Shown here piece by piece: positions 1 to 14,117 of a stretch of DNA of 57,084 bases. Every line of letters starts with the position of its first letter. Position 1 is the stretch's first letter. The position numbers and the translations under genes were made by a program. The stretch covers positions 1-57,084 of the forward strand of contig CALLVD010000008.1 of the NCBI GenBank assembly GCA_938010385.1. Reading direction: 5' to 3'. The notes beneath the pieces are model-generated. The model saw only the letters and a program-made list of their open reading frames with translations. It was not told the DNA's origin and searched no databases. The DNA comes from an uncultured Robiginitomaculum sp. (GTDB taxonomy: Bacteria; Pseudomonadota; Alphaproteobacteria; Caulobacterales; Maricaulaceae).

Positions 1-278
1 ATATTCAATACATTGTAACCGTTCAGCAGACGTAAGCGGGGTATATCTACACGGCTCGACACCGATCTTTGGTCGCGGGATCCGGAGAAAGGTTGCGATT
101 AACTCAAATTTTAAGGCGTCCGATTTTTTTGGGTGTTTAGACCCCGAATTCCTTGCTCGGCACATTACGATAATTTTCAAATAATACACCTAAAAATAGA
201 ATTTTAACCATACTTTTGAACAGGTTTGCAACTATAGGTTCGTAATGAGGTCTTGAAGCAAATTTTTCAGGATTTAGA

Positions 279-1484
279 ATGAAAAGCGCACGAATGTTTT
301 TTCTATTATTCCGCGCCATATGCGTTGGAATAACTTTATTGCAAATTGGCCAATTCTCCCACGCGAGTGAACAGACTTCAGCAACCCGCTTAAATTCGGC
401 GCCCACAATGGAGCGACCATTTGTTGTGTTAATTCAGGCCACAGATAAATTGGAAGACTCGCCATGGTTCCAAGGAATTGACAGTTACGCTAACAACGCG
501 GCGACGTCGCTGAATATAGATTTCAAGCACTTACTCACAGGCGATGACAGAAGCGAAATTCCGAAAGTTCTTGTAAACTACATCCACAATGAGCGCCGGC
601 CCGACTACTTATTGTTCGCCAATCAAATTGAGATTGCCCCCGGCATTCTTCAATTATGTGAGGAAATGGGAATTAAGGCATTTATGATTAACTCCCCATT
701 GTCCAAAAAAGACCGCCAAGTTCTGGGGGAGCCAAGGGAAGATTTAACAAATTGGATTGGCGAAATCATCCCCGATGATGAGCAGGCCGGATTTGAATTA
801 GCCCGTATTCTCATTGAAAAAGCCCGTGAGAACAAGCAAGCAAACGGCGAGACCGGCAAAATAAAAGTAATTGGAATTTCGGGCACGAATGCAACGCCCG
901 CATCTGCACTGAGAGTTGAAGGCTTAAAACGCGCAATCGCGATGCACGAGGATGCAGAGTTACTTCAAGTCGTTTCTGCACGCTGGGTTCCTCATGTCGC
1001 GGCCCAAAAATACAGATTATTGGTTTCACGCTATGGCGAACCGGACGTAGTTTGGGCAGCGAATGATGACATGGCTTTAGGTGTATTGGAAGAGGCCCGC
1101 GCCTTTAAACACATGCCTGCAATCGGAGGCTTTGATTGGACACCGCCGGCTATCCGAGCCTTGCAAAAAGGCGAGCTGAGCGCCTCTATGGGCGGTCATG
1201 ACTTTGAAGTCGCCTATGCACTCAAAATCCTTAAAGCCTATCATGAAGGCCGGGACTTTCTGCAAACAAGTGGGACAACCTCGTTAAAATCTAAGCTTAC
1301 CTCCCTGACTCCCGAGACTGTTTACGACCATAGCAATTTTCTGACCGCAATTCGCGAAACAGAAGTCGACTATGCCACAGGACTATCTGCCTTGCTTCTT
1401 AATAAAGAAGACTATGCAGATATTTCCATAGACCAATTCAAGAAGAATTTTGAGGCAAGCCCTCTCGCAGATGGAGCGAAATAA
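279..1484 (+). CDS. Periplasmic substrate-binding protein (Peripla_BP_4 / ribose-binding-like)
   Basis: 401 aa ORF with N-terminal signal peptide; type I periplasmic-binding fold pattern (VVWAANDDMALGVLEEAR, IGGFDWTPPAIRALQKGELSASMGG). No ABC permease or ATPase nearby. Confidence 0.8.
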   Translation: MKSARMFFLLFRAICVGITLLQIGQFSHASEQTSATRLNSAPTMERPFVVLIQATDKLEDSPWFQGIDSYANNAATSLNIDFKHLLTGDDRSEIPKVLVNYIHNERRPDYLLFANQIEIAPGILQLCEEMGIKAFMINSPLSKKDRQVLGEPREDLTNWIGEIIPDDEQAGFELARILIEKARENKQANGETGKIKVIGISGTNATPASALRVEGLKRAIAMHEDAELLQVVSARWVPHVAAQKYRLLVSRYGEPDVVWAANDDMALGVLEEARAFKHMPAIGGFDWTPPAIRALQKGELSASMGGHDFEVAYALKILKAYHEGRDFLQTSGTTSLKSKLTSLTPETVYDHSNFLTAIRETEVDYATGLSALLLNKEDYADISIDQFKKNFEASPLADGAK

Positions 1485-3604
1485 TGTCTCAATGGACGCA
1501 AAGAATAGGAACAAAACCCGCTTTGGCAGGGCTTATTGCGATTATCAGCATACTCTTGATTGAGGCATTGCTGTCTTGGCTTTATGCCAGCAAGACCTTG
1601 AATGCTGACTTTAAAGCTGAAGTCAATTCACATTTATCTTCATCCGCTGAAGCCATGATTATGCCAATCTGGGATCTTGATATTGAATCCTTAGACGGAA
1701 TGGCGAAATCAATCTCCCTTACTCCAAATGTTATCTCGGTGAAAGTTACAGATCCGGCAGACATAATTTTGACGCATCACGTTAATCATGATGTGGCGGG
1801 GGGCAATCCACTGGAAATATCTCGGAATATTGAAGCAGCCTATAACCGAAACATAGACAAAACAGGAACTTTAACGATTGTGTATTCGCGTACCCAAATA
1901 GGAAAAAAATTGATGCATATCGCCTGGAAATCAACGGCTAGGATGATTGTGTTTTGCGTATTATTTTTCGGTGTTTTGCTAATTACAATCAGCACAGTCG
2001 TTTTGCCAATCAGGTCCTTGGAACAAACCGTGAGAAAATACAACGAACGACAAAATCTGTCATTCGTCCCCGGGGAAGACCGAGATGACGAAATGGGGTC
2101 TTTGGCTCGCGGATTTAAGTATATGGCGAAGCAAATACATCAAAATGTTGCGACGCTGGAAGCGCGCGTCATACAACGCACACGAGAGCTGAATTCAGCC
2201 GTTCAAGACGTTGTCGCAGCCAACAAAAAATTAGAGAATGCCGCCCTGCACGATCCGCTTACGGGTTTGCCAAACCGTCTCTTCATTTCTAAATATTTGG
2301 AAGAAGAAATACAGAAAGCGGATGCGACAAACAACACAATTGCGGTAGCCCATATTGACCTCGACAATTTTAAAAAAATCAATGACACATACGGCCACTC
2401 TGCCGGTGATTTTATGTTGGTACAAATGTCTCTTCGAATGAAAGAATGGATCAACGGGGATAAAATGATTGCACGAGTGGGCGGGGACGAATTTCTTTTA
2501 ATATCTACCGACTGCCGCTCACCTAAAGATATTGAGTCCGAGATTACAGGCTTGCTGAGTGCATTGATGCAGCCTTTAAACTTTGAAGGCATCACATTGC
2601 AAACCAGTGCATCAATTGGAGTTTCGCACTATCCTAATTCCGGGTGTGACAGTAATGAGTTGATAGTCAATGCGGATTTGGCGTTATACAAAGCAAAAGC
2701 AGACGGTCGCGGTTGTATTCAGTTCTTTAAAAAACCGATGAGACAAGCGCTTAACTGGCAAAAAACGCTGGAAGCTGAAATGGTGATTGCCCTTGAAAAG
2801 CAGCAGTTTGTGCCATTTTTTCAGCCGCAAGTCGATATTGCCACCGGAAACATCAGCGGCGTCGAAGTGCTCGCACGGTGGAAGCATGAAGACCGCGGGT
2901 TAATCCCCCCTGATGTTTTCTTGCCTGTTGCGGAACGCGCGGGTCTCATGGTCTCGCTTGGCAAACAAATTATTGAAAAAGCCATTATTAGCGCGGCGGA
3001 TTGGCAGGCCAATAAGATTGAATTTGGACGTCTGGCTCTGAATTTATCAGCTGTGGAACTGGCTGAAGAGGGCCTGGTGGATTGGCTGTTAAGTACCGCA
3101 GAAAAGCACAATCTCTCTGCGGAAAAATTGTCTGTAGAGATTCTCGAAACGGTCATAATTGATGACGAAAGGTTTGATCTTGTTAAGCGATTGAGACATC
3201 TGAGGCAGGCCGGTGTCTATGTTGAGCTGGACGATTTTGGAACCGGTTATGCCAGCTTGCAGCAGTTAAACGCTGAAGAAATTGACCGAATAAAAATTGA
3301 TCGCAGTTTTATTAAAGGTATAAATTTAGATCAAAACAAGGCGGCCATTGTTAAAGCCATTGTAGATATGACACTAACCATGGGTGTGGAGGTCATAGCC
3401 GAGGGTGCAGAGACGAAAAATGAACTGGACACATTGTTTGAGTTTGGGTGTCACGTTGTTCAGGGTTACGGAATCGCAAAACCAATGCCTGTGAACGTGA
3501 TGGATGAATGGCTAAATCTGTTTTGCGGACACTCCCATCAAATAAATGCTGCGGTGCATATTCAAAAGAAAATCGAACGCACAAAGTACAAGCTAACCGG
3601 TTAA
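1484..3604 (+). CDS. Membrane GGDEF-EAL protein (periplasmic sensor, HAMP, GGDEF, EAL)
   Basis: Two TM segments flanking a periplasmic domain, HAMP-like region, RVGGDEF motif, EAL-domain motifs (EVLARW, DDFGTGYASL, KIDRSFI, AEGAET, QGYGIAKP). TAATG overlap with the preceding gene. Confidence 0.93.
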   Translation: MSQWTQRIGTKPALAGLIAIISILLIEALLSWLYASKTLNADFKAEVNSHLSSSAEAMIMPIWDLDIESLDGMAKSISLTPNVISVKVTDPADIILTHHVNHDVAGGNPLEISRNIEAAYNRNIDKTGTLTIVYSRTQIGKKLMHIAWKSTARMIVFCVLFFGVLLITISTVVLPIRSLEQTVRKYNERQNLSFVPGEDRDDEMGSLARGFKYMAKQIHQNVATLEARVIQRTRELNSAVQDVVAANKKLENAALHDPLTGLPNRLFISKYLEEEIQKADATNNTIAVAHIDLDNFKKINDTYGHSAGDFMLVQMSLRMKEWINGDKMIARVGGDEFLLISTDCRSPKDIESEITGLLSALMQPLNFEGITLQTSASIGVSHYPNSGCDSNELIVNADLALYKAKADGRGCIQFFKKPMRQALNWQKTLEAEMVIALEKQQFVPFFQPQVDIATGNISGVEVLARWKHEDRGLIPPDVFLPVAERAGLMVSLGKQIIEKAIISAADWQANKIEFGRLALNLSAVELAEEGLVDWLLSTAEKHNLSAEKLSVEILETVIIDDERFDLVKRLRHLRQAGVYVELDDFGTGYASLQQLNAEEIDRIKIDRSFIKGINLDQNKAAIVKAIVDMTLTMGVEVIAEGAETKNELDTLFEFGCHVVQGYGIAKPMPVNVMDEWLNLFCGHSHQINAAVHIQKKIERTKYKLTG

Positions 3605-3866
3605 AAAATCCGGTAAGTCGAATCCTCATAAATATGATTCTTAAAACTATCGCTCACAAAGTCCGCCCAACCATTCCGGATTAAGCAACGCCTTGGCCTG
3701 CAAAATCAATGCGGATATTTGGCAATTAGGTGTCCAACCGAAGGCTATGCTTTCGTTAATTGGGTTAAGCCGGATTGCGGTCTGCGAACGCATTAATCTT
3801 TACAAATTGAGCCAAGGCGAGTTTGCGGCTTTGCTCCGTATTCAGGGCCGGGCGGCACCTTGGCTC
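3601..3866 (-). pseudogene. Decayed C-terminal fragment of an unidentified protein
   Basis: Reverse-strand conceptual translation, joined across frameshifts: ALNTEQSRKLALAQFVKINAFADRNPA / RLNPINESIAFGWTPNCQISALILQAKALLNPEW / ADFVSDSFKNHIYEDSTYRIF-stop. An extra TTGG explains the last frame change. Confidence 0.4.
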
Positions 3867-3925
3867 ATAAAATTTCAAAGGTGACATCCTTTACCGGTGT
3901 CCTGCCGGCCCGGACTGTTATCACG

Positions 3926-3980
3926 ATGTGGCGTAAAGAATACAACCATATGAGGCCACATCAAGCCGGCGGCCTGCCAT
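3926..3980 (+). pseudogene. IS3-like transposase C-terminal remnant
   Basis: Translation MWRKEYNHMRPHQAGGLP resembles the W..(D/E)YN..RPH..LG C-terminus of IS3-family integrase-core transposases; the rest is absent. Confidence 0.5.
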
Positions 3981-4081
3981 TTGTTACCCGAGATTCCAGA
4001 CCACACCGGGGCATAAAGGGACAAGTGCAAGCGGCCGGAAAACTCACACTCAACACCTCTTTTTACAATACCGTCGCCTTT

Positions 4082-4099
4082 CCGCTTAGGTCTAAGCGG
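4082..4099. promoter_or_regulatory. Perfect inverted repeat upstream of the sugar transporter (candidate operator)
   Basis: CCGCTTAG-GT-CTAAGCGG, about 48 bp upstream of the ATG at 4147. Confidence 0.4.
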
Positions 4100-4146
4100 G
4101 CAAGGACAGGAATTGACAAGTTAAGTGTGGCATTTCAAAAGCGAGC

Positions 4147-5787
4147 ATGGACACACATTATTCAGAAAACGACAGACTCGCCAAACTCAGTTTACGCGAA
4201 CGCATCGGCTACGGGCTTGGGGACGCAGGGTTTAACTTTTATTGGGCTATTATCGGCTCGTATCTGGTTTTTTTCTACACTGATATTTTCGGAATAAGCG
4301 CCGCCGCCGCCGCAACTATGGTGACGGTTACCAAAATCATGGACGCCTTTACTGACCCTGCTATCGGCGCTTTAGCCGATCGGACCAAAACCCGGTGGGG
4401 AAAGTTTCGTCCCTTTCTTTTGATTGGCGCAGTTCCGATGATGGCTGCCGGCATACTGACGATGACCACACCTGACCTTGGTGAAACCGGCAAGTTAATT
4501 TGGGCCTACGGCACATATGCATTACTGATGTTATGCTACACATTTCTGAACATACCTTATTCTTCACTCTCGGGCGTGTTGTCAGCCGATGGCAGAGAAC
4601 GTAACAAAATTAACAGCACGCGTTTCTTTTTTGCTTATTTGAGCAGTATCATCGTAGGCACGGCGACCCCTGATATTGCAGCTTTTTTTGGCGGCGGTGA
4701 CCCCAACAGCGCCAAAGGTTGGCAAATGACTATGGTTATCTATTCCGTCATAGCCTCCTGTCTGTTCCTTGTAACATTTTTCACAACCAAGGAACGTGTT
4801 GAGCCTCCCAAATCCCAAAAATCAGCGAGCCCCCTTCAAGATTTGAAAACCTTATTTGTTTGCATGCCTTGGCTGGTGCTTTTCATTTTGGCTATGTTTT
4901 TTATGGTCATCATGACCCTGCGCGGCAGTTCCGCCGCCTATTATTTCAAATATTATCTGGTACGGCTGGATTTATTAGGGGCTTATATCGGCCTGCAATT
5001 TCTGGGGCTGATGATCGGCGCCGTCTTGGCGGGTTACGTCACGCGGTTTATTGACAAGAAAAAGCTGCTCATGGCAACGCTTTTGATTGTTGGCACTTTA
5101 AGCCTTATTTTTACGGCGCTCCCCAAGCCTGACCAATCGGGCATTATCCGAATAGATGCAGAGACAGCTCAAACCATTCAAGCCCAAGATTTGCTGAACG
5201 CACCGGTTGAAGGGAAGCTTACGTGGGAATCTCATGAAAAAACAATTTGGATTTTTAAAACACGTGTTCCAATGGCCGAAACAGGTCCAAGCCTGAAAGC
5301 GCAAGATCACCTGAACAAAACAATCAGCGTAAAGCAGAAAAATCCGGATGGGACGATTACAGACAGCGGTAAAACCCCAATCGAGATATATTATATTTTC
5401 ACGCTTAACTTCCTCATCAGCATTGCCTTAGGGTTTAAACCGCCTATCACATGGGGAATGTATGCCGATGTGGCAGATTTCAATGAATGGAAAACCGGAC
5501 GCCGGGCTACAGGCATGACCTTTTCGGCAACGACATGTTCTCAAAAACTGGGCAGCACTATTGGGTCCGCGGCCCTATTGGGAATGCTTGCAAGTTTGGG
5601 TTACCAAGCCAATAAGATTCAGGGCGATGCCTCTGTCAGCGGTATCGTCTATATGAAAACGCTAATTCCGGGAATATTGGCATTTTTGACCGCAGCCGTG
5701 CTGATTTTCTACAAGTTAGATCAAACTCGCTTGGACAGTATTCAAATCGATCTCAAAAATCGGCATAATGGAGACGCACCGCAATGA
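4147..5787 (+). CDS. GPH-family (MelB-like) sugar:cation symporter, MFS
   Basis: 546 aa polytopic protein; GYGLGDAGFNFYWAIIGSYLVFFYTDIFGI, DAFTDPAIGALADRTKTRWGKFRPF are GPH family signatures. Confidence 0.9.
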   Translation: MDTHYSENDRLAKLSLRERIGYGLGDAGFNFYWAIIGSYLVFFYTDIFGISAAAAATMVTVTKIMDAFTDPAIGALADRTKTRWGKFRPFLLIGAVPMMAAGILTMTTPDLGETGKLIWAYGTYALLMLCYTFLNIPYSSLSGVLSADGRERNKINSTRFFFAYLSSIIVGTATPDIAAFFGGGDPNSAKGWQMTMVIYSVIASCLFLVTFFTTKERVEPPKSQKSASPLQDLKTLFVCMPWLVLFILAMFFMVIMTLRGSSAAYYFKYYLVRLDLLGAYIGLQFLGLMIGAVLAGYVTRFIDKKKLLMATLLIVGTLSLIFTALPKPDQSGIIRIDAETAQTIQAQDLLNAPVEGKLTWESHEKTIWIFKTRVPMAETGPSLKAQDHLNKTISVKQKNPDGTITDSGKTPIEIYYIFTLNFLISIALGFKPPITWGMYADVADFNEWKTGRRATGMTFSATTCSQKLGSTIGSAALLGMLASLGYQANKIQGDASVSGIVYMKTLIPGILAFLTAAVLIFYKLDQTRLDSIQIDLKNRHNGDAPQ

Positions 5788-8135
5788 CATATCCATTAAA
5801 GGGGGCGAAGGATATTTATGCCCCTGATGACTCCGGACTGCGGTACAATTTATACTCTCCGACAAAATTGCCTTTGGCGTCATCTTTTCTGTGGTCGTCA
5901 AAAGTCCTGTTACAAGTCAGCGCGGGCGGGTTTGTCAGGTCCAAATATCTGTCTCCGGAGCCTGCTAAATACTCCTATGCGCCTAACATAGAAGCGACGA
6001 CTTTCTTCCAGCCTGAAATGCCTTACTATGCGCACCATCCCGGCCGATTTTTCTATATTAAAGACTTGGATACGGGCGCTCTTTATTCTGCCCCCTATGA
6101 ACCTGTTAAAGCTAGGCCCGAAAAATTCGTCTTTTCCTCGGGGCAAACCGATATTCGTTGGGATGTTACGTTCGAGGGTTTAAAATTTGAGATTACTTTA
6201 ACGCCGGCTGAAGAGGATATCGTTGAACTCTGGTCGGTGAAACTCACCAATGCATCGGGGCGTCAACGCCGTATAAAATTTGTTCCGTGCTTCTCAGTTG
6301 GCTTTATGAGTTGGATGAACCAGTCAGCAGCCTATGATGCTGACCTTCAAGGTATCGTTGCAGACTGCGTTACGCCTTATCAAAAGCTGGAAGATTACGA
6401 TCGCATCAAAGCCTGCCGGGATAAGACATTTCTTCTGGCGAGAACTGCGCCTGATCATTGGGAGGTCAGCCGAGCCCGCTTTGAGGGGCGCGGAGGTATT
6501 CATAAACCTGAAAGCCTAGAAACAGGGTTTTCAAATCGACCGGCCAATTACGAAACCCCCATTGCCGCCCTGTCTTATGATTTGGATTTGGGCATAGCCG
6601 ACACAAAGGATTTTGATTTCTTGTTTGGCCCGGCCTTTGATAAAAAGGAAATTTCAAGAATAAAGCAGGCTTACTTCGGCAAAGCAGAAAATAAGAGCCC
6701 GCAGAAAACACGCGATAATAAACTGCAGGCCTGCAGAGACGTATTACAAATCGAAACGCCGGATAAAGACTTCAATAATTTTGTCAATTCTTGGCTGCCG
6801 CGCCAACTGCTCATGCACGGGGAAATCAATCGCCTTACGCAAGATCCGCAAACACGAAACTATCTTCAAGATAATATGGGGATGAGCTACCTGGCCCCCG
6901 AAAAAATGAAGCAGGCCATCCTACGAACCTTATCACAACAAAATGATGACGGGTCTCTTCCTGATGGAATATTGCTACATCCAGATGCAAAGTTTAATTA
7001 CATCAACACCATCCCCCATAATGACCACAACATATGGCTGCCCATTTGTTTAGAGTCGTATCTGGATGAAACAAATGATTACAAAATTTTGGATAAAGTC
7101 GTAGCCGGTCAAAGCGTTACTGACCGCATCAATGCGGCCATGACATGGCTTATCGGCAATCGCGACAATCGCGGCTTGAGTTACATTGCTCAAGGGGACT
7201 GGTGTGATCCGATGAATATGGTGGGGCCTGAGGGCAAAGGCGTTTCAGGCTGGCTGACAATAGCGACAGCGCACGCCCTTAAAATTTGGAGTCAGATATT
7301 AACGCGCGCGGGACGCAAATCGCCCGGCAACATTAAAACGGCCTTCCTTGATATTGCCGCAGCATCTCAAGACCATTTGTGGGACGGACAATGGTTTATT
7401 CGGGGAATTTCAGATAACAATCAGAAGTTCGGGCAAAACAGCGATAGTGAAGGCCGTATTTTTCTCAACCCTCAAAGCTGGGCTCTGATGAGCGGCATTG
7501 TCAGCCCCGAACAGAGTGATGAAATTATTGCCTCCGTCGAGCAGCACCTGGCAACGCCCTACGGGGCAACCATGCTCGCGCCGGCTTATACAAAAATGCA
7601 TGAGCATATTGGGCGAGTCACCCAAAAATTTCCGGGATCGGCTGAAAACGGATCCGTCTATAATCACGCCGCTGTCTTTTACATATACAGCCTTTATCAA
7701 ACAGAGCATTTTGACCTTGCGTTTAAACATTTGCGCGCCATGCTTCCTCAAGACGACCAAGCAGATATTCTGCGGCGCGGGCAATTACCTATCTTTCTTC
7801 CCAATTACTATCGGGGTGCTTATCATCAGTTTCCCGACGAAGCAGGCCGCTCGAGCCACATGTTTAATACGGGTACGGTGAGTTGGTATTATCGCTGCGT
7901 CATCGAAGAACTCATCGGATTACGAGGCCATCCTGACGGACTACTTATCCGGCCCAAACTGCCGTCGACTTGGCCTGCCCTATCGGCAAAACGTCTGTTT
8001 CGTGGAAGCGAAATCAACCTAACCGTGACGCGCGGCGCGGATCCGCAGGTGAGTGTTAATGGCAAGCAGCAAAAAACGCCTCTGCTCACGGACATAAAAC
8101 CGGGACAATCCTATGACGTCAAAGTAATTATCTGA
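5784..8135 (+). CDS. GH94-family glycoside phosphorylase (cellobiose/laminaribiose phosphorylase-like)
   Basis: 783 aa; GDWCDPMNMVGPEGKGVSGWLT catalytic-region signature, N-terminal GH94/GT36-like beta-sandwich and C-terminal RLFRGSEINLTVTRG. ATGA overlap with the transporter. Confidence 0.87.
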   Translation: MTYPLKGAKDIYAPDDSGLRYNLYSPTKLPLASSFLWSSKVLLQVSAGGFVRSKYLSPEPAKYSYAPNIEATTFFQPEMPYYAHHPGRFFYIKDLDTGALYSAPYEPVKARPEKFVFSSGQTDIRWDVTFEGLKFEITLTPAEEDIVELWSVKLTNASGRQRRIKFVPCFSVGFMSWMNQSAAYDADLQGIVADCVTPYQKLEDYDRIKACRDKTFLLARTAPDHWEVSRARFEGRGGIHKPESLETGFSNRPANYETPIAALSYDLDLGIADTKDFDFLFGPAFDKKEISRIKQAYFGKAENKSPQKTRDNKLQACRDVLQIETPDKDFNNFVNSWLPRQLLMHGEINRLTQDPQTRNYLQDNMGMSYLAPEKMKQAILRTLSQQNDDGSLPDGILLHPDAKFNYINTIPHNDHNIWLPICLESYLDETNDYKILDKVVAGQSVTDRINAAMTWLIGNRDNRGLSYIAQGDWCDPMNMVGPEGKGVSGWLTIATAHALKIWSQILTRAGRKSPGNIKTAFLDIAAASQDHLWDGQWFIRGISDNNQKFGQNSDSEGRIFLNPQSWALMSGIVSPEQSDEIIASVEQHLATPYGATMLAPAYTKMHEHIGRVTQKFPGSAENGSVYNHAAVFYIYSLYQTEHFDLAFKHLRAMLPQDDQADILRRGQLPIFLPNYYRGAYHQFPDEAGRSSHMFNTGTVSWYYRCVIEELIGLRGHPDGLLIRPKLPSTWPALSAKRLFRGSEINLTVTRGADPQVSVNGKQQKTPLLTDIKPGQSYDVKVII

Positions 8136-8326
8136 GCTTACCCAAAGCTGACGGCCGTCAGTTCGCAGGGCCTCGATTATTAAGGTATGAATACGGTTCG
8201 GGTTTACGGCCCCATTTATTTTAAAGGGCAAAACCTGCAAATAACTCTACGGGAAAATGGCGGGAAGTTAGGGCGCAGGTCAGTGTGATTAACAACACTC
8301 GCATGTGTACAAACTCTGAATTCCAA

Positions 8327-9268
8327 TCAGTTGTTTTGATAGACTCGAACCCAATCGATAACCATTTCGGCAGGAAAGGATGCGGGCTCAAAAGGGCCTC
8401 GGCCTTCACCGTCGGGGAGATTTCCGCCCACGGCCAAGTTCAAAATCAGATGAAAGCCTTGGTCAAAAGGTGCGCTTGGGTTTTCCGACTTTGGAATGGT
8501 GGCCGTGTGCCAATCCGCCTTGTCGACTTTGTAAACAAGGTCTCCGTCCACATACCATTGAATGTGATCAGGCGCCCATTCCGCCGCGAAGATATGAAAG
8601 TCTGTCGGCTCGCCGGGCAGAGCCTGCCGCTTAAATAAAACATTGTTATGCGGCCAAGGCTGTCCGAAATGTAGGGCCGCCCCGGTCCGGGTTTCAATTC
8701 CGACGGGACCGCAATCGGTGCAGGGTTCGCCCAGGTTGACGGCTTCCATAATGTCAATTTCGCCGGACAGGGGCCATTTACCGTAAGCGTTTTCCTCCGG
8801 CAGCATCCAGAAAGCGGGCCACGTGCTTTGCCCTTGAGGCAGCCTTATGCGCGCTTCAAACCGTCCGTAAGTCCAATCGGCAAGACCATAGGTGCGGACT
8901 TTTCCGGAGGTATGGCTTTGGGTTGTGAGCCCGCCGCGATCCGTTTTCTCTTGAGAAAAGCGCTCGCCGGTAAAGGATTCCGGCTTGGCAATCAGGTGCA
9001 GGTAACCGTCCTTGACTTGGATGTTATCCGGCCGGTCCGTATAGCATTGGCGTTCATAATTTCCGCCGCCCCAACAGGATGTCTCCGCCTGCCATTTTGT
9101 CCGATCAAGCGCGTCTCCCTCAAACTCATCAGCCCAAACTAATGTCATGCCGGGACGCTCCGGAGCTGAGACAGCGCGAGCGCTCTCAATGCGGCCCTCG
9201 GCGCTGTTACACCCGCACAGCAGAGCCGCGCCGAGCAAGCCGGTGAGAGTCTTTATGCCCAATTTCAT
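8327..9268 (-). CDS. GH16 family beta-glucanase (laminarinase-like), lipoprotein
   Basis: GEIDIMEA catalytic motif, WPAFWMLP, lipobox LLCGC. Confidence 0.92.
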   Translation of the reverse strand: MKLGIKTLTGLLGAALLCGCNSAEGRIESARAVSAPERPGMTLVWADEFEGDALDRTKWQAETSCWGGGNYERQCYTDRPDNIQVKDGYLHLIAKPESFTGERFSQEKTDRGGLTTQSHTSGKVRTYGLADWTYGRFEARIRLPQGQSTWPAFWMLPEENAYGKWPLSGEIDIMEAVNLGEPCTDCGPVGIETRTGAALHFGQPWPHNNVLFKRQALPGEPTDFHIFAAEWAPDHIQWYVDGDLVYKVDKADWHTATIPKSENPSAPFDQGFHLILNLAVGGNLPDGEGRGPFEPASFPAEMVIDWVRVYQNN

Positions 9269-11187
9269 TATTGGCGCGCGGCCGCGGTATAAGTCAGGCC
9301 ATAGCCGCGCGGTTTATATTGACCCGAGCCGTTTGCAGGCCAATCGAAAGGCAGCTTGCCTTTGAAGTTATAATCGCCTTCAACTAAAACGTCTGCAAGG
9401 CCGCCCCCTTCACTGCCCGGCAGCCATGCGGCCACAAATGCATCAGACGCCTGAATGGCAGCATCAACGCCGCGCGGGCGACCGGAAAGAAAGACCGCAA
9501 CCACCGGAATATTGCGCGCTTTTAAGCTTTGCATAAGCTTAAAATCTGCAGAGCTTGTCAGGTCAAAATCAGTATTTTGCAAATCCCCTTCCATTTCTGC
9601 ATAGGGTGTTTCGCCGAAGACGATGACTGCGACATCAGCCGCCGTCGCCGTGTCAGATGTGACAGTGCCGGAGCTGATCGCCTGTTCAAAACCGTCTTTT
9701 ACGGTAGTGAAGCCTTTATACTTTTCATCGGCGACGTCGCGGCCCTGCCATGTAAGGGTCCAGCCGCCGGATTGCATAGAAGGGCTGTCAGCGCCGGAGC
9801 CGGCGACGATGACATTGGCACGCTTGGAGATTGGCAAGGCGTTGTCATTCTTGAGCAGGACCAAGGATTCACGCACGGCCTGACGGGCAACGGCCCTGTG
9901 GCTTTTATGTCCGATCAGTTTGGCGCGACCCGCCAGCCTTTGCGTTGACGGCTTGCCGTCATCAAACATGCCGGCGCGCATTTTGACCCGTAATATGCGC
10001 CGCACGGCATCATCAAGGCGCGCCTGCGAAATCTCGCCGGCATTTACCTGGCGCACTGCATTGTCCAAGAACGCTTTCCAATCGTCAGGGACCATAATCA
10101 TATCAACGCCGGCATTGATGGCGGCCGCGCAGGATGATTTCGTACATCCCGGAATTTGTTCGTGGCCGTTCCAATCACCGATGACAAAACCGTCAAACCC
10201 CATTTTGCCTTTGAGCACATCGGTCAGCATGTATTTGCTGCCGTGGAGTTTATTACCGTTCCAGCTGTTAAAGCTGGCCATGACGGTTTGGACGCCGGCG
10301 CCGATGGTTTGGACATAGCCTTGTCCGTGAATATCGAAAAGCTCTTGCTCGGACAGAACCGTATTGCCTTGATCTTTACCGCCGGCTGTGCCTCCGTCGC
10401 CGATGAAATGTTTGGCAGTGGCGACGAGTTTTTGCTCGGACAGGAAGTTACCCAGCGCCGGATGACCTTGGAGACCCAACAGGATTTCTTTGGACAGTTC
10501 TGCGACGATTTTCGGATCGCTCGAATAGCTTTCATAACTACGGCCCCAGCGAATATCGCGGGCGACGGCAACTGTCGGCGCAAATGCCCAGTCTATGCCT
10601 GTCACAGCGACCTCGCGGGCGGTTGCCGTTCCGATATCGCGCATCAAGCCCGGATTATTGGCGGCGCCCAGACCGATATTGTGCGGAAATATAGTTGCGC
10701 CTTGGACATTATTGTGGCCGTGCACCGCGTCCGTTCCCCAGATAATAGGAATTGCGAGCCGGCCATCGCCTGTATCCATCGACGCGCCGTAAAACCGGTT
10801 AGCCAAAGCCAGCCATCCGGCAAGCGGGCCGTCAACTTTACCGGTCGGCCAAGAGCCGCCGCCGTTCAGGACTGACCCGATATTGTATTTAGCCGCGTCG
10901 TCTGGCGAGATGTTTTTGATTTCGGGCTGAATTAACTGGCCAACTTTCTGCGCCGTGTTCATTTGCGCCAGCAGCGCATCAATTCTCGTCTCTATTCCTG
11001 CATCAAGACCAATGGGTGACTTGACCGCCGGCCATATTTTGTCGGCTTGCGCGCTCAGCGGGGCGCTGAGCGGGACAGACGGCTTGGACGGGGTCACGGG
11101 CGCGGACTGCGCCTGGCTTGAACCCGTCGTGGCGCAAGCGGCAAAAATCAGGCAGGCGGCAGCACTTAGAAAAAGAGACTTTTTCAT
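9268..11187 (-). CDS. GH3 family beta-glucosidase, lipoprotein
   Basis: 639 aa; KHFIGDGGT, GFVIGDWNGH nucleophile region, WLPGSEGGGLADVL; lipobox FAAC. Confidence 0.93.
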   Translation of the reverse strand: MKKSLFLSAAACLIFAACATTGSSQAQSAPVTPSKPSVPLSAPLSAQADKIWPAVKSPIGLDAGIETRIDALLAQMNTAQKVGQLIQPEIKNISPDDAAKYNIGSVLNGGGSWPTGKVDGPLAGWLALANRFYGASMDTGDGRLAIPIIWGTDAVHGHNNVQGATIFPHNIGLGAANNPGLMRDIGTATAREVAVTGIDWAFAPTVAVARDIRWGRSYESYSSDPKIVAELSKEILLGLQGHPALGNFLSEQKLVATAKHFIGDGGTAGGKDQGNTVLSEQELFDIHGQGYVQTIGAGVQTVMASFNSWNGNKLHGSKYMLTDVLKGKMGFDGFVIGDWNGHEQIPGCTKSSCAAAINAGVDMIMVPDDWKAFLDNAVRQVNAGEISQARLDDAVRRILRVKMRAGMFDDGKPSTQRLAGRAKLIGHKSHRAVARQAVRESLVLLKNDNALPISKRANVIVAGSGADSPSMQSGGWTLTWQGRDVADEKYKGFTTVKDGFEQAISSGTVTSDTATAADVAVIVFGETPYAEMEGDLQNTDFDLTSSADFKLMQSLKARNIPVVAVFLSGRPRGVDAAIQASDAFVAAWLPGSEGGGLADVLVEGDYNFKGKLPFDWPANGSGQYKPRGYGLTYTAAARQ

Positions 11188-11207
11188 AATATTATTCCGT
11201 ATAAGGT

Positions 11208-11246
11208 TTTAAAAAATCAGCGCGCAGAGCAAAGTCTGCGCGCTTT
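11208..11246 (-). terminator. Rho-independent terminator/attenuator between TBDR and GH3
   Basis: Perfect 10-bp stem AGCGCGCAGA-gcaaag-TCTGCGCGCT (11219..11244) followed on the minus strand by GATTTTTTAAAA. Confidence 0.7.
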
Positions 11247-11258
11247 AACAGCCTATAT

Positions 11259-14096
11259 TTACAGCTTGGCCCGCAGACGAATGCCGTAAGTACGCGGACG
11301 AGAGAAGAAGCGCGTGTTATCAAACTGCGTGATAATAATGCCCTGCTCTCTTTGTTCATCGGTTACATTGGCAACCCACCCTTCGACGCGGTATTTACCT
11401 TCGTCATCAAAGGTGTAGCCGGCGCCCAGGTCGAACGTCCAATACGGTTCAACTTCGTCATCAAGACGCCGCGCAACATCATCATCTGGATTATAATCAA
11501 TGCCGTTGAAGATCGTCATGTTCTGCTCTGACCGATAGCCGAAGGAGACCTGCGCATCGAACATACCGGCATTGGTAAAGTCCCAAGCTTTGGACAGTTT
11601 CCCATTGAGCTGGATTTCGGGCGTTCTAATCAGGCGATTGCCTTCGATTGAACGGTTCACGGCATTAACGGCATCCACATCAGCCTGATAGCGGGCATCT
11701 TGGATTTCTTGCGAGTCAACAACGCGCGCCTCTTTCAGCCACAGCAACGTGGCATCAAAGTTGACATTGCCCGGAAACTCTACGCCTGTTTCAAATTGCG
11801 CGCCGTAAATTTCGGCGTCAGAGGCGTTAAAGTTGAAAGCGACAACAGTCCCGCCGCCACCGTCTACGGGCTCGGCACCGATGAAGTCTCTGACCTGCGC
11901 GGTAGACAATAAAGTTGTCAGTTGAATGTCGTTATAGTCGTAATAGAAGGCCGAAGCGTTGAACGTGATCGGGAGGGTTTCAAACTCAAATTCCTGCTTT
12001 GACCCGATTTCATATAATGTCAGACGTTCTTGGTCATAGGTCGGCGCCGGGCCCAATGGCGTAAACTCAGTCGAAGCTCCGCCGGCGAGGTTGAATGAGC
12101 CGTCAGATGGCGCAATGCCGGGAATATTGTCGTTAAATCCGCCGGATTTACTGCCGGTCGCGACAAGACCGTAAACCAAGTGATCGTCGGACACATCAAA
12201 CTCGCCGCGAATGCGCCAATCGACAAAGTCCTGTTTCAATGCGCCATTTTGAATGGCCGCGTCAAAATTATCAGTGGCAACAACCGCGAAAGACACATTA
12301 CCGACAAGGTTATCAAAATCACCGCCGCCGAAATTCGTTGCGGTCGCTTGCGTGAAACAGCTATTGCCGCTTGTTCCGTCAAAGCCGATTAAGAGCTCAG
12401 GACAAGGAGGCCGGTCGCCGAACGGTATCGGATCAACAACCTCGCCATTGGCGTAAATATCGTCGAGCCCGTCCCGCGCACCAAAGCGCGCGACGCCGTC
12501 AAAATAAAAATCAATAACTTCCTGTGCATCGACCACGCTGTCTCTATTGGTATCAGGATTAAAGATTGTGCGATCAAACCCTGCAAATTCAAACCCTTCT
12601 GTGCCGACGCCGGTGGCAAAACAGCACCCGAAGAAATCACCGCCGATAATGAAGGCCTGACCGAAGCGGGCATTAACACCGAACCGCTCTTTTTGGTCTT
12701 CCGTGTAGCGCAGGCCGCCGGAGACGCGGAATCTATCCGTGACGTCATAAGTCGCATCACCGTAGACGGACCAGCTTTCCGTATCCGTAAACTGGTTAAA
12801 TTCAATACCTGAGAAAAACGGATTGCGGTCACCTGTCGTAGCCAGCAAAGTGCGCTGATCTTCTTCAAATACGAAGGCGCCTAATGTCCATGAGAGCTTT
12901 TTATCATCATTAGAAAATGCGCGGACCTCATGGATTGTGCTTTCGCTGTCCGTCAGAAACTGAATTCGCGAGAAATTATCAATATCGCCGGCGCTGATAT
13001 TATCCAAAACGCCGTCATAAGCGACGGAGGCCGGAGTCACAAAATCATAATCAAACAGCAAATCACGTTTTGATCCGATATATTCAACGCTGAACGTATC
13101 AAAATCATATTCAGCGTGCAGTTTAATTCCGCTGTGTTCTGTATCTTCTTCCGGCGTAAACGCGCGGCCGACGACTTTACGCGGGTCTTTGATGCTTTCA
13201 GGTCGAATGCCGTTTCCGAGCGCATTGGCGTAGTTCACGCCGGTATAGCCGGAGCCTTGCTGCTTAAGCTGATCCGCCGTTAATGTCAGAGACAGGCGGT
13301 CTGTCGGCTCCCAGAGCGCGGTGACGCGAATGCCGCTGTCATCTGCGGCCTCGCCAACGCCAACACCTTCCGCTTCACAGGTCGGGACATTCAAGCCAAG
13401 CTCGTCGCTGCACGGCGTAATGCTTTGCAGATAGCTGTCGTGCTCGGACTTATAGCCCGCAACACGAATAGCCGCCGTCTGTCCGATTGGAATATTGACC
13501 ATGCCCTCAATCGAACGTTCATTGAAGTTACCAATGCCGACTTCGGCCATGGCGTCCCAATTTCCAAGCCATGGCTTCCAAGGGATAATGTTGACAGAAC
13601 CCGCAGTCGCATTGCGGCCGCGCAGCGTGCCTTGGGGACCGATATTAACTTCAACGCGCTCAATATCAAAGAAGCCAGCCCCAACGCCGGCAGGACGCGG
13701 CAGATAGACGTCATTCAAATGCGTGGCGGCTGCCGGATCGCCGAGTTCCGTGTTGTTGGAAGAGCCGACACCGCGAATATACACTTCGACATTGCCTTGA
13801 TTGTTGGCGATGGACAGGCCGGGAATTTTTCCGTCGATGTCTGTAACGTCTGTAATGCCAAGCATTTTTAACTCTTCGCCTGAGATAGCAGCCGCAGTAC
13901 CGGCGTAATCCTGCAGCGACTGTGCGCGGCGTTCGACAGTGACGATGACTTCAGATGTGCCGTCCGCATTGTCGATAATTTCGCTTGATGACTGCGCCGT
14001 TGCGCTCATAGGCAGAGCCATTGCCGCTGTAATGGCCGCAGCCGATACGCTGCGCATGGAGAAAAGTTTAGAAAATTCTGATGTGTGATATCGCAT
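11259..14096 (-). CDS. TonB-dependent outer membrane receptor
   Basis: 945 aa; plug domain (VIVTVERRAQSLQDYAGTAAAISGEELKMLGI), C-terminal beta-barrel ending FFSRPRTYGIRLRAKL. Confidence 0.95.
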   Translation of the reverse strand: MRYHTSEFSKLFSMRSVSAAAITAAMALPMSATAQSSSEIIDNADGTSEVIVTVERRAQSLQDYAGTAAAISGEELKMLGITDVTDIDGKIPGLSIANNQGNVEVYIRGVGSSNNTELGDPAAATHLNDVYLPRPAGVGAGFFDIERVEVNIGPQGTLRGRNATAGSVNIIPWKPWLGNWDAMAEVGIGNFNERSIEGMVNIPIGQTAAIRVAGYKSEHDSYLQSITPCSDELGLNVPTCEAEGVGVGEAADDSGIRVTALWEPTDRLSLTLTADQLKQQGSGYTGVNYANALGNGIRPESIKDPRKVVGRAFTPEEDTEHSGIKLHAEYDFDTFSVEYIGSKRDLLFDYDFVTPASVAYDGVLDNISAGDIDNFSRIQFLTDSESTIHEVRAFSNDDKKLSWTLGAFVFEEDQRTLLATTGDRNPFFSGIEFNQFTDTESWSVYGDATYDVTDRFRVSGGLRYTEDQKERFGVNARFGQAFIIGGDFFGCCFATGVGTEGFEFAGFDRTIFNPDTNRDSVVDAQEVIDFYFDGVARFGARDGLDDIYANGEVVDPIPFGDRPPCPELLIGFDGTSGNSCFTQATATNFGGGDFDNLVGNVSFAVVATDNFDAAIQNGALKQDFVDWRIRGEFDVSDDHLVYGLVATGSKSGGFNDNIPGIAPSDGSFNLAGGASTEFTPLGPAPTYDQERLTLYEIGSKQEFEFETLPITFNASAFYYDYNDIQLTTLLSTAQVRDFIGAEPVDGGGGTVVAFNFNASDAEIYGAQFETGVEFPGNVNFDATLLWLKEARVVDSQEIQDARYQADVDAVNAVNRSIEGNRLIRTPEIQLNGKLSKAWDFTNAGMFDAQVSFGYRSEQNMTIFNGIDYNPDDDVARRLDDEVEPYWTFDLGAGYTFDDEGKYRVEGWVANVTDEQREQGIIITQFDNTRFFSRPRTYGIRLRAKL

Positions 14097-14117
14097 GATG
14101 TTCCCTTGGATTTTTTT

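Follow-up and report, generated by a model that had tools for sequence, protein, structure and literature searches.

The first two genes of the window very probably form a co-receptor operon, in which an exported solute-binding protein (SBP) would provide the ligand input to a membrane-bound c-di-GMP enzyme. We put the probability of this reading at about 0.8. Sequence shows an exported SBP, the order of domains, catalytic motifs that are intact, the overlap of the two genes, a receptor domain with homologues and, across the family, pairing with signalling outputs and no transporter genes; contact between the two proteins, the ligand class and the direction of regulation we infer.

In the proposed mechanism, the SBP would close on a small molecule in the periplasm, probably a sugar or sugar-like compound, and dock on the membrane protein, presumably a dimer, at its compact PAS-type domain, which is CHASE5/LapD-like. 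The signal would pass through the second transmembrane segment (TM2) and HAMP and tip the enzyme towards either its diguanylate cyclase (GGDEF) or its phosphodiesterase (EVL-type EAL) activity, so that the c-di-GMP level would be set by an external chemical. NspS-MbaA (PMC8079147) and the general SBP-receptor mechanism (PMC9602780) are the analogies for this scheme, in which the ligand-loaded SBP on the receptor dimer would bias cyclase against phosphodiesterase activity.

The gene pair

The window is one whole contig (G000:C8:1-57084, 57,084 bp), and all coordinates are window positions. The features of the locus are as follows.

279..1484, + strand: exported type-I SBP, Peripla_BP_4, 401 aa (ORF, Pfam, 3h75 match, hydrophobic segment)
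about 279-365, + strand: signal sequence of the SBP (single N-terminal hydrophobic segment, ending ...SHA-SEQ)
1473..1486, + strand: GGAG ribosome-binding-like site and TAATG stop/start overlap coupling the two genes (sequence)
1484..3604, + strand: 706-aa membrane protein, HAMP-GGDEF-EAL, with intact motifs in both catalytic domains (ORF, Pfam, motif positions)
1577..1945, + strand: periplasmic CHASE5/LapD-output-like domain, residues 32-154, with a P-I-W-D-L-D motif; presumed SBP docking domain (leave-one-out HMM, 4u64)
1988..2143, + strand: HAMP domain (Pfam 8e-6)
2243..2713, + strand: GGDEF domain, GGDEF motif at residues 333-337, no RxxD I-site (Pfam 6e-44, motif positions)
2786..3484, + strand: EAL domain, EVL type, with E461(VL), N520, E552, DD583-584, K605 and further motifs (Pfam 5e-67, motif positions)
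3884-3967: C-terminal remnant of an integrase core (rve_3, IS3-type, 5e-6), between the pair and the MFS/GH94 genes
4147-14096: putative beta-glucan locus with MFS_2, GH94 phosphorylase, GH16, GH3 and TonB receptor (domain matches)

The ORFs 279-1484 (401 aa) and 1484-3604 (706 aa) share one base within TAATG, and ribosome-binding-like motifs precede both starts (AGGA at 269-272 for the SBP, GGAG at 1473-1476 for the receptor). ORFs, Pfam matches and transmembrane segments thus bore out an earlier note on this DNA, which had described a binding protein overlapping a two-TM, HAMP, GGDEF-EAL protein. The note's statement that the binding protein lacks ABC partners also held: no ABC gene was recognised in window positions 1-14100, and the CUT2 permease PF02653, present in 12 of 14 control genomes, was absent from the 75%-complete host genome. 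Counts of promoters and terminators showed no clear excess over shuffles. The pair lies at the contig edge, 278 bp from the end, and its upstream neighbour lies off the contig.

The binding protein

Compared with Pfam, the SBP matched Peripla_BP_4 (7.1e-17), and its closest solved structure was 3h75, annotated "periplasmic sugar-binding domain protein" (146 bits). Matches were limited to Peripla_BP_4/3 in Pfam and to the RbsB type; the protein did not qualify as PotD-type. In the search of solved structures no LuxP chain was matched at E<=1. When aligned to 1drk, R212, N262 and D286 fell on the sugar-contact positions of RbsB, that is, the residues we take to contact ribose. R212 is conserved in 52 of 54 relatives, most of them have D or N at position 286, the aromatic pair at positions 63-64 is near-invariant and a GGH signature at 305-307 occurs in nearly all. 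A sugar or polyol is a plausible ligand. Single-sequence structure predictions gave pLDDT values of 39.9 and 54.0, too low for use. A scan of the genome contigs for relatives returned one weak relative.

The receptor enzyme

The 706-aa protein has transmembrane segments at residues 13-31 and 155-173, followed by HAMP (169-220), GGDEF (254-410) and EAL (435-667). The residues E461, N520, E552, DD583-584 and K605 coincide with those reported for active EAL enzymes (mapped on RocR, PMC9993111). Since both motif sets are intact, both activities are possible for this receptor, as has been argued for MbaA (PMC8079147). Only three EAL proteins were found in the host genome, so the product of 1484-3604 makes up a large share of its visible EAL-type c-di-GMP machinery.

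Signalling partners of the SBP family

Relatives of the SBP were searched in 399 genomes of the phylum, 385 of the class, 99 close genomes and a plasmid collection. Counting the window, 54 relatives scored above 50 bits, and the gene surroundings of this family set were read. In 24 of the 54 we found a signalling partner or a fusion, and in none of the 54 a CUT2 transporter gene beside the SBP. The conserved pair without ABC genes, which the earlier note had named as a check, was thus found; the pattern it had named as refuting, homologous pairs always beside ABC genes, was not.

The partners encoded as separate genes carry GGDEF (7), GGDEF-EAL (4, window included), histidine kinase (7) or MCP (1) outputs. 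Further partners are one EAL protein, with one gene between, and a CHASE5 protein without a recognised output domain (L062; its label "CHASE5-GAF" was given without a Pfam GAF match). The SBP is fused to GGDEF once (L059) and to a hybrid histidine kinase twice (L065 by Pfam, L063 by phmmer). In most partnered operons the spacing is about -15 to +74 bp; in L045 it is 214 bp, and in L041 and L098 one gene intervenes between SBP and partner.

Several of these loci have an unusual make-up. In L041 (3391-5391) the SBP is followed by a second exported protein of 293 aa with no Pfam match and then by a CHASE5 hybrid kinase, possibly a three-part receptor. L059 (6729-9194) encodes one protein with Peripla_BP_4, SBP_bac_3 and GGDEF, that is, two binding domains on one cyclase. 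In L065 (2674-7779) and L063 (1-7955) the SBP is fused to very large hybrid kinases, and L065 additionally carries dCache, PAS, two receivers and Hpt.

The other 30 of the 54 relatives are solo SBPs with neither partner nor transporter adjacent, which counts against the co-receptor reading. Many of them belong to a single genus (g136) or are carried on Pseudoalteromonas plasmids. L036, L038, L039, L042, L044, L052, L053 and L061 belong to this solo group, and several of these adjoin a divergent gene resembling sulfite/nitrite reductase.

As a control, identical queries and +/-1.5 kb windows were applied to a matched set of 30 proteins from the same class with strong Peripla_BP_4 matches. Transporter genes (ABC or permease) accompanied 26/30 control SBPs and 0/41 members of the family of the window SBP (P0001; Fisher 1.6e-15), whereas signalling genes accompanied 0/30 and 13/41, respectively (Fisher 3.7e-4); these counts are phylogenetically non-independent, and the +/-1.5 kb windows lose some partners. 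An internal contrast comes from the search itself: two relatives below 50 bits, in Mesorhizobium (L078) and Rhizobium (L080), lie with ABC genes and are ordinary SBPs of transporters.

Existing annotation agrees with the pairing in Salinivibrio (SBP and diguanylate cyclase) and Cupriavidus (SBP and histidine kinase). Database records of the family read "ABC transporter substrate-binding protein", an annotation that masks its probable signalling role.

These data bear on an alternative in which the SBP serves ordinary sugar uptake with a permease and ATPase encoded at another locus, and the GGDEF-EAL gene is merely adjacent. Such a role would agree with the CUT2/RbsB-type fold and pocket residues, with a genome only 75% complete and with a contig end 278 bp before the pair. 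However, the genome has no PF02653 permease, adjacent CUT2 genes occur in no family member compared with 26/30 ordinary SBPs, and fusions of the SBP to signalling domains exist. We consider uptake quite unlikely.

A shared periplasmic domain

Seventeen SBP partners, among them the window receptor, have a common topology in which 108-134 residues separate TM1 from TM2; their outputs are histidine kinase, GGDEF, GGDEF-EAL or unassigned. An L-W-x-x-D motif occurs in most of these domains and reads PIWDLD in the window receptor. Leave-one-out HMMs recovered 17/17 partner domains, 16/17 below 1e-6 (window receptor 4.9e-8; L055 only 0.014), with no off-target match among 1890 ORFs. Pfam CHASE5 (PF17149) was matched at E<=1 by 12 of the 17 domains, the window's own being unmatched. 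The sole solved relative of the periplasmic part was 4u64, the LapD output domain of Legionella CdgS9 (E 0.0013).

The pairing conserved without ABC genes, the exchanged outputs, the fusions and the 17 homologous periplasmic domains argue for the SBP as co-receptor. The earlier proposal of an SBP that delivers its ligand to the receptor is thus well supported by comparative genomics, with physical contact as its inferred part. A further point against the co-receptor reading is that the CHASE5-like domain also occurs without a neighbouring SBP: 26 weaker matches in 20 genomes fell outside the SBP-linked receptors, and at the 20 of these loci that were read no family SBP adjoined the match.

Three partners, L045 (MCP), L046 (histidine kinase) and L095 (histidine kinase), have a larger periplasmic region of about 280 residues in place of the short domain. 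In L095 (8018-10735) this region is a TorS sensor domain, carried by a hybrid kinase next to the SBP-family gene, a link to TorT-TorS.

Comparison with known systems

The closest precedent is NspS-MbaA of Vibrio cholerae and Sinorhizobium meliloti, a polyamine SBP with a GGDEF-EAL receptor, which is a better functional match than LuxPQ. Signalling by this system is independent of transport (PMC8079147, PMC9993111), and MbaA without its SBP is a constitutive phosphodiesterase. As in NspS-MbaA, the window's SBP gene lies directly upstream of, and overlaps, a TM-periplasmic-TM-HAMP-GGDEF-EAL gene (cf. PMC9993111), and, like V. cholerae MbaA, the window receptor has an EVL-type EAL domain. In contrast, NspS is a PotD-type polyamine SBP whereas the window SBP is a type-I Peripla_BP_4 protein with sugar-type pocket residues; MbaA has SGDEF whereas the window receptor has the canonical GGDEF; and the window's periplasmic domain, about 123 residues long, is CHASE5/LapD-like, unlike that of MbaA.

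Compared with LuxP-LuxQ, a type-I SBP would likewise present its ligand to a membrane receptor, but the output is GGDEF-EAL instead of a hybrid kinase. The earlier LuxPQ label was not supported: besides the different output and the missing LuxP match, no LuxQ-periplasm domain was matched by Pfam in the window receptor. By its sequence affinities, the pair belongs to neither the NspS-MbaA nor the LuxPQ family. TorT-TorS also uses a type-I SBP as co-receptor, and at L095 the partner of the family SBP is a TorS_sensor kinase; the window receptor, however, carries the short CHASE5-like domain and not the helical domain of TorS. RbsB and MglB are CUT2 SBPs of the same fold family, and R212/N262/D286 match the RbsB ligand contacts; unlike them, the window SBP has no permease or ATPase and carries the GGH signature (305-307).

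LapD and CdgS9 share the TM-HAMP-GGDEF-EAL architecture and, by profile (4u64), the periplasmic fold. In CdgS9 the LapD output domain adopts a PAS-like fold and binds the protein LapG, which sets a precedent for protein docking on this fold. An inside-out, LapD-like mode, in which c-di-GMP binding in the cytoplasm causes the SBP, or some other protein of the periplasm, to be captured by the periplasmic domain, would fit the shared architecture and this sole solved relative. However, LapD has degenerate motifs, a GWxQ docking loop and LapG as partner, whereas both motif sets of the window receptor look intact, GWxQ is absent from its sequence and LapG (PF06035) was not found in the host genome. 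Homologous domains also sit on kinases and plain cyclases, which require the outside-in direction. An inside-out mode is therefore very unlikely. Direct sensing by the receptor domain of a signal of its own, with the SBP unrelated or accessory (a buffer or scavenger, for example), is highly improbable: CHASE5-like domains without an adjacent SBP and the many solo SBP relatives would agree with it, but without functional coupling the fusions, and the tight operons with several output types, are difficult to account for.

For the co-receptor reading, the genomic features of SBP-activated transmembrane receptors (gene adjacency, a periplasmic domain and no transporter partner) were found, and binding of the SBP to that domain is predicted. 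Most likely the pair senses a nutrient or another chemical in a way whose general type is known, with parts that have been little studied. To our knowledge, the inputs of most c-di-GMP enzymes are unknown, and a recognisable pair of SBP family and receptor domain gives a handle on them. The ligand of the soluble SBP, once found, would point to the signals for many cyclase/phosphodiesterase, kinase and chemoreceptor partners.

A broader reading, which we hold only tentatively and rate below even odds, is that of a transporter-free, sugar-type SBP family with a dedicated CHASE5/LapD-like docking domain serving kinases, cyclases and GGDEF-EAL proteins, and chemoreceptors via other domains. The window pair might then be a horizontally acquired sugar-to-c-di-GMP member and the first SBP-mediated sugar input to a GGDEF-EAL enzyme. 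A 2022 review states that, within the PBP clan, SBP_bac_3 domains alone have been studied in c-di-GMP networks (PMC8846402). Our literature search returned no description of the SBP family as a c-di-GMP input under the terms tried; an earlier mention is possible.

Evolution of the pair and its surroundings

In the SBP tree the window is sister to the histidine kinase-paired SBP of G082 (support 99/98) and stands apart from the other GGDEF-EAL pairs (L047, L049, L050). The output type thus changes within the SBP family. The receptor-domain tree lacked resolution and did not reproduce this grouping; because of this disagreement, we claim that outputs have been exchanged across the family but do not claim strict co-inheritance. 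Co-evolution of SBP and receptor domain by mirror-tree was dropped, since its significance came from near-identical pairs only (r=0.07, p=0.34 after dereplication).

The pair was likely acquired horizontally. Its GC content is 0.447, compared with 0.525 in the window beyond 8136 and 0.54-0.555 in three other stretches of the genome, a deficit of about 8-10 points relative to the rest of the genome. Besides the host's own, the SBP is present in 1/99 close-relative genomes (98/99 without), and homologues of the receptor (P0002) among relatives match only its cytoplasmic half.

The earlier note had also suggested a sugar or glucan link to the nearby locus. The glucan locus is real, but we rejected a specific link to the pair as evidence, given the integrase remnant, the GC change and the surroundings of the SBP relatives, among whose neighbours no consistent glucan theme was found. 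The integrase remnant suggests a mobile-element scar at the junction. The low-GC contig end, 1-8135 (0.447-0.479), spans the pair, the MFS transporter and GH94. Among 60 other relatives searched, GH94 was found in one (G032, a 59% relative), and this rarity indicates that the entire low-GC contig end may be imported.
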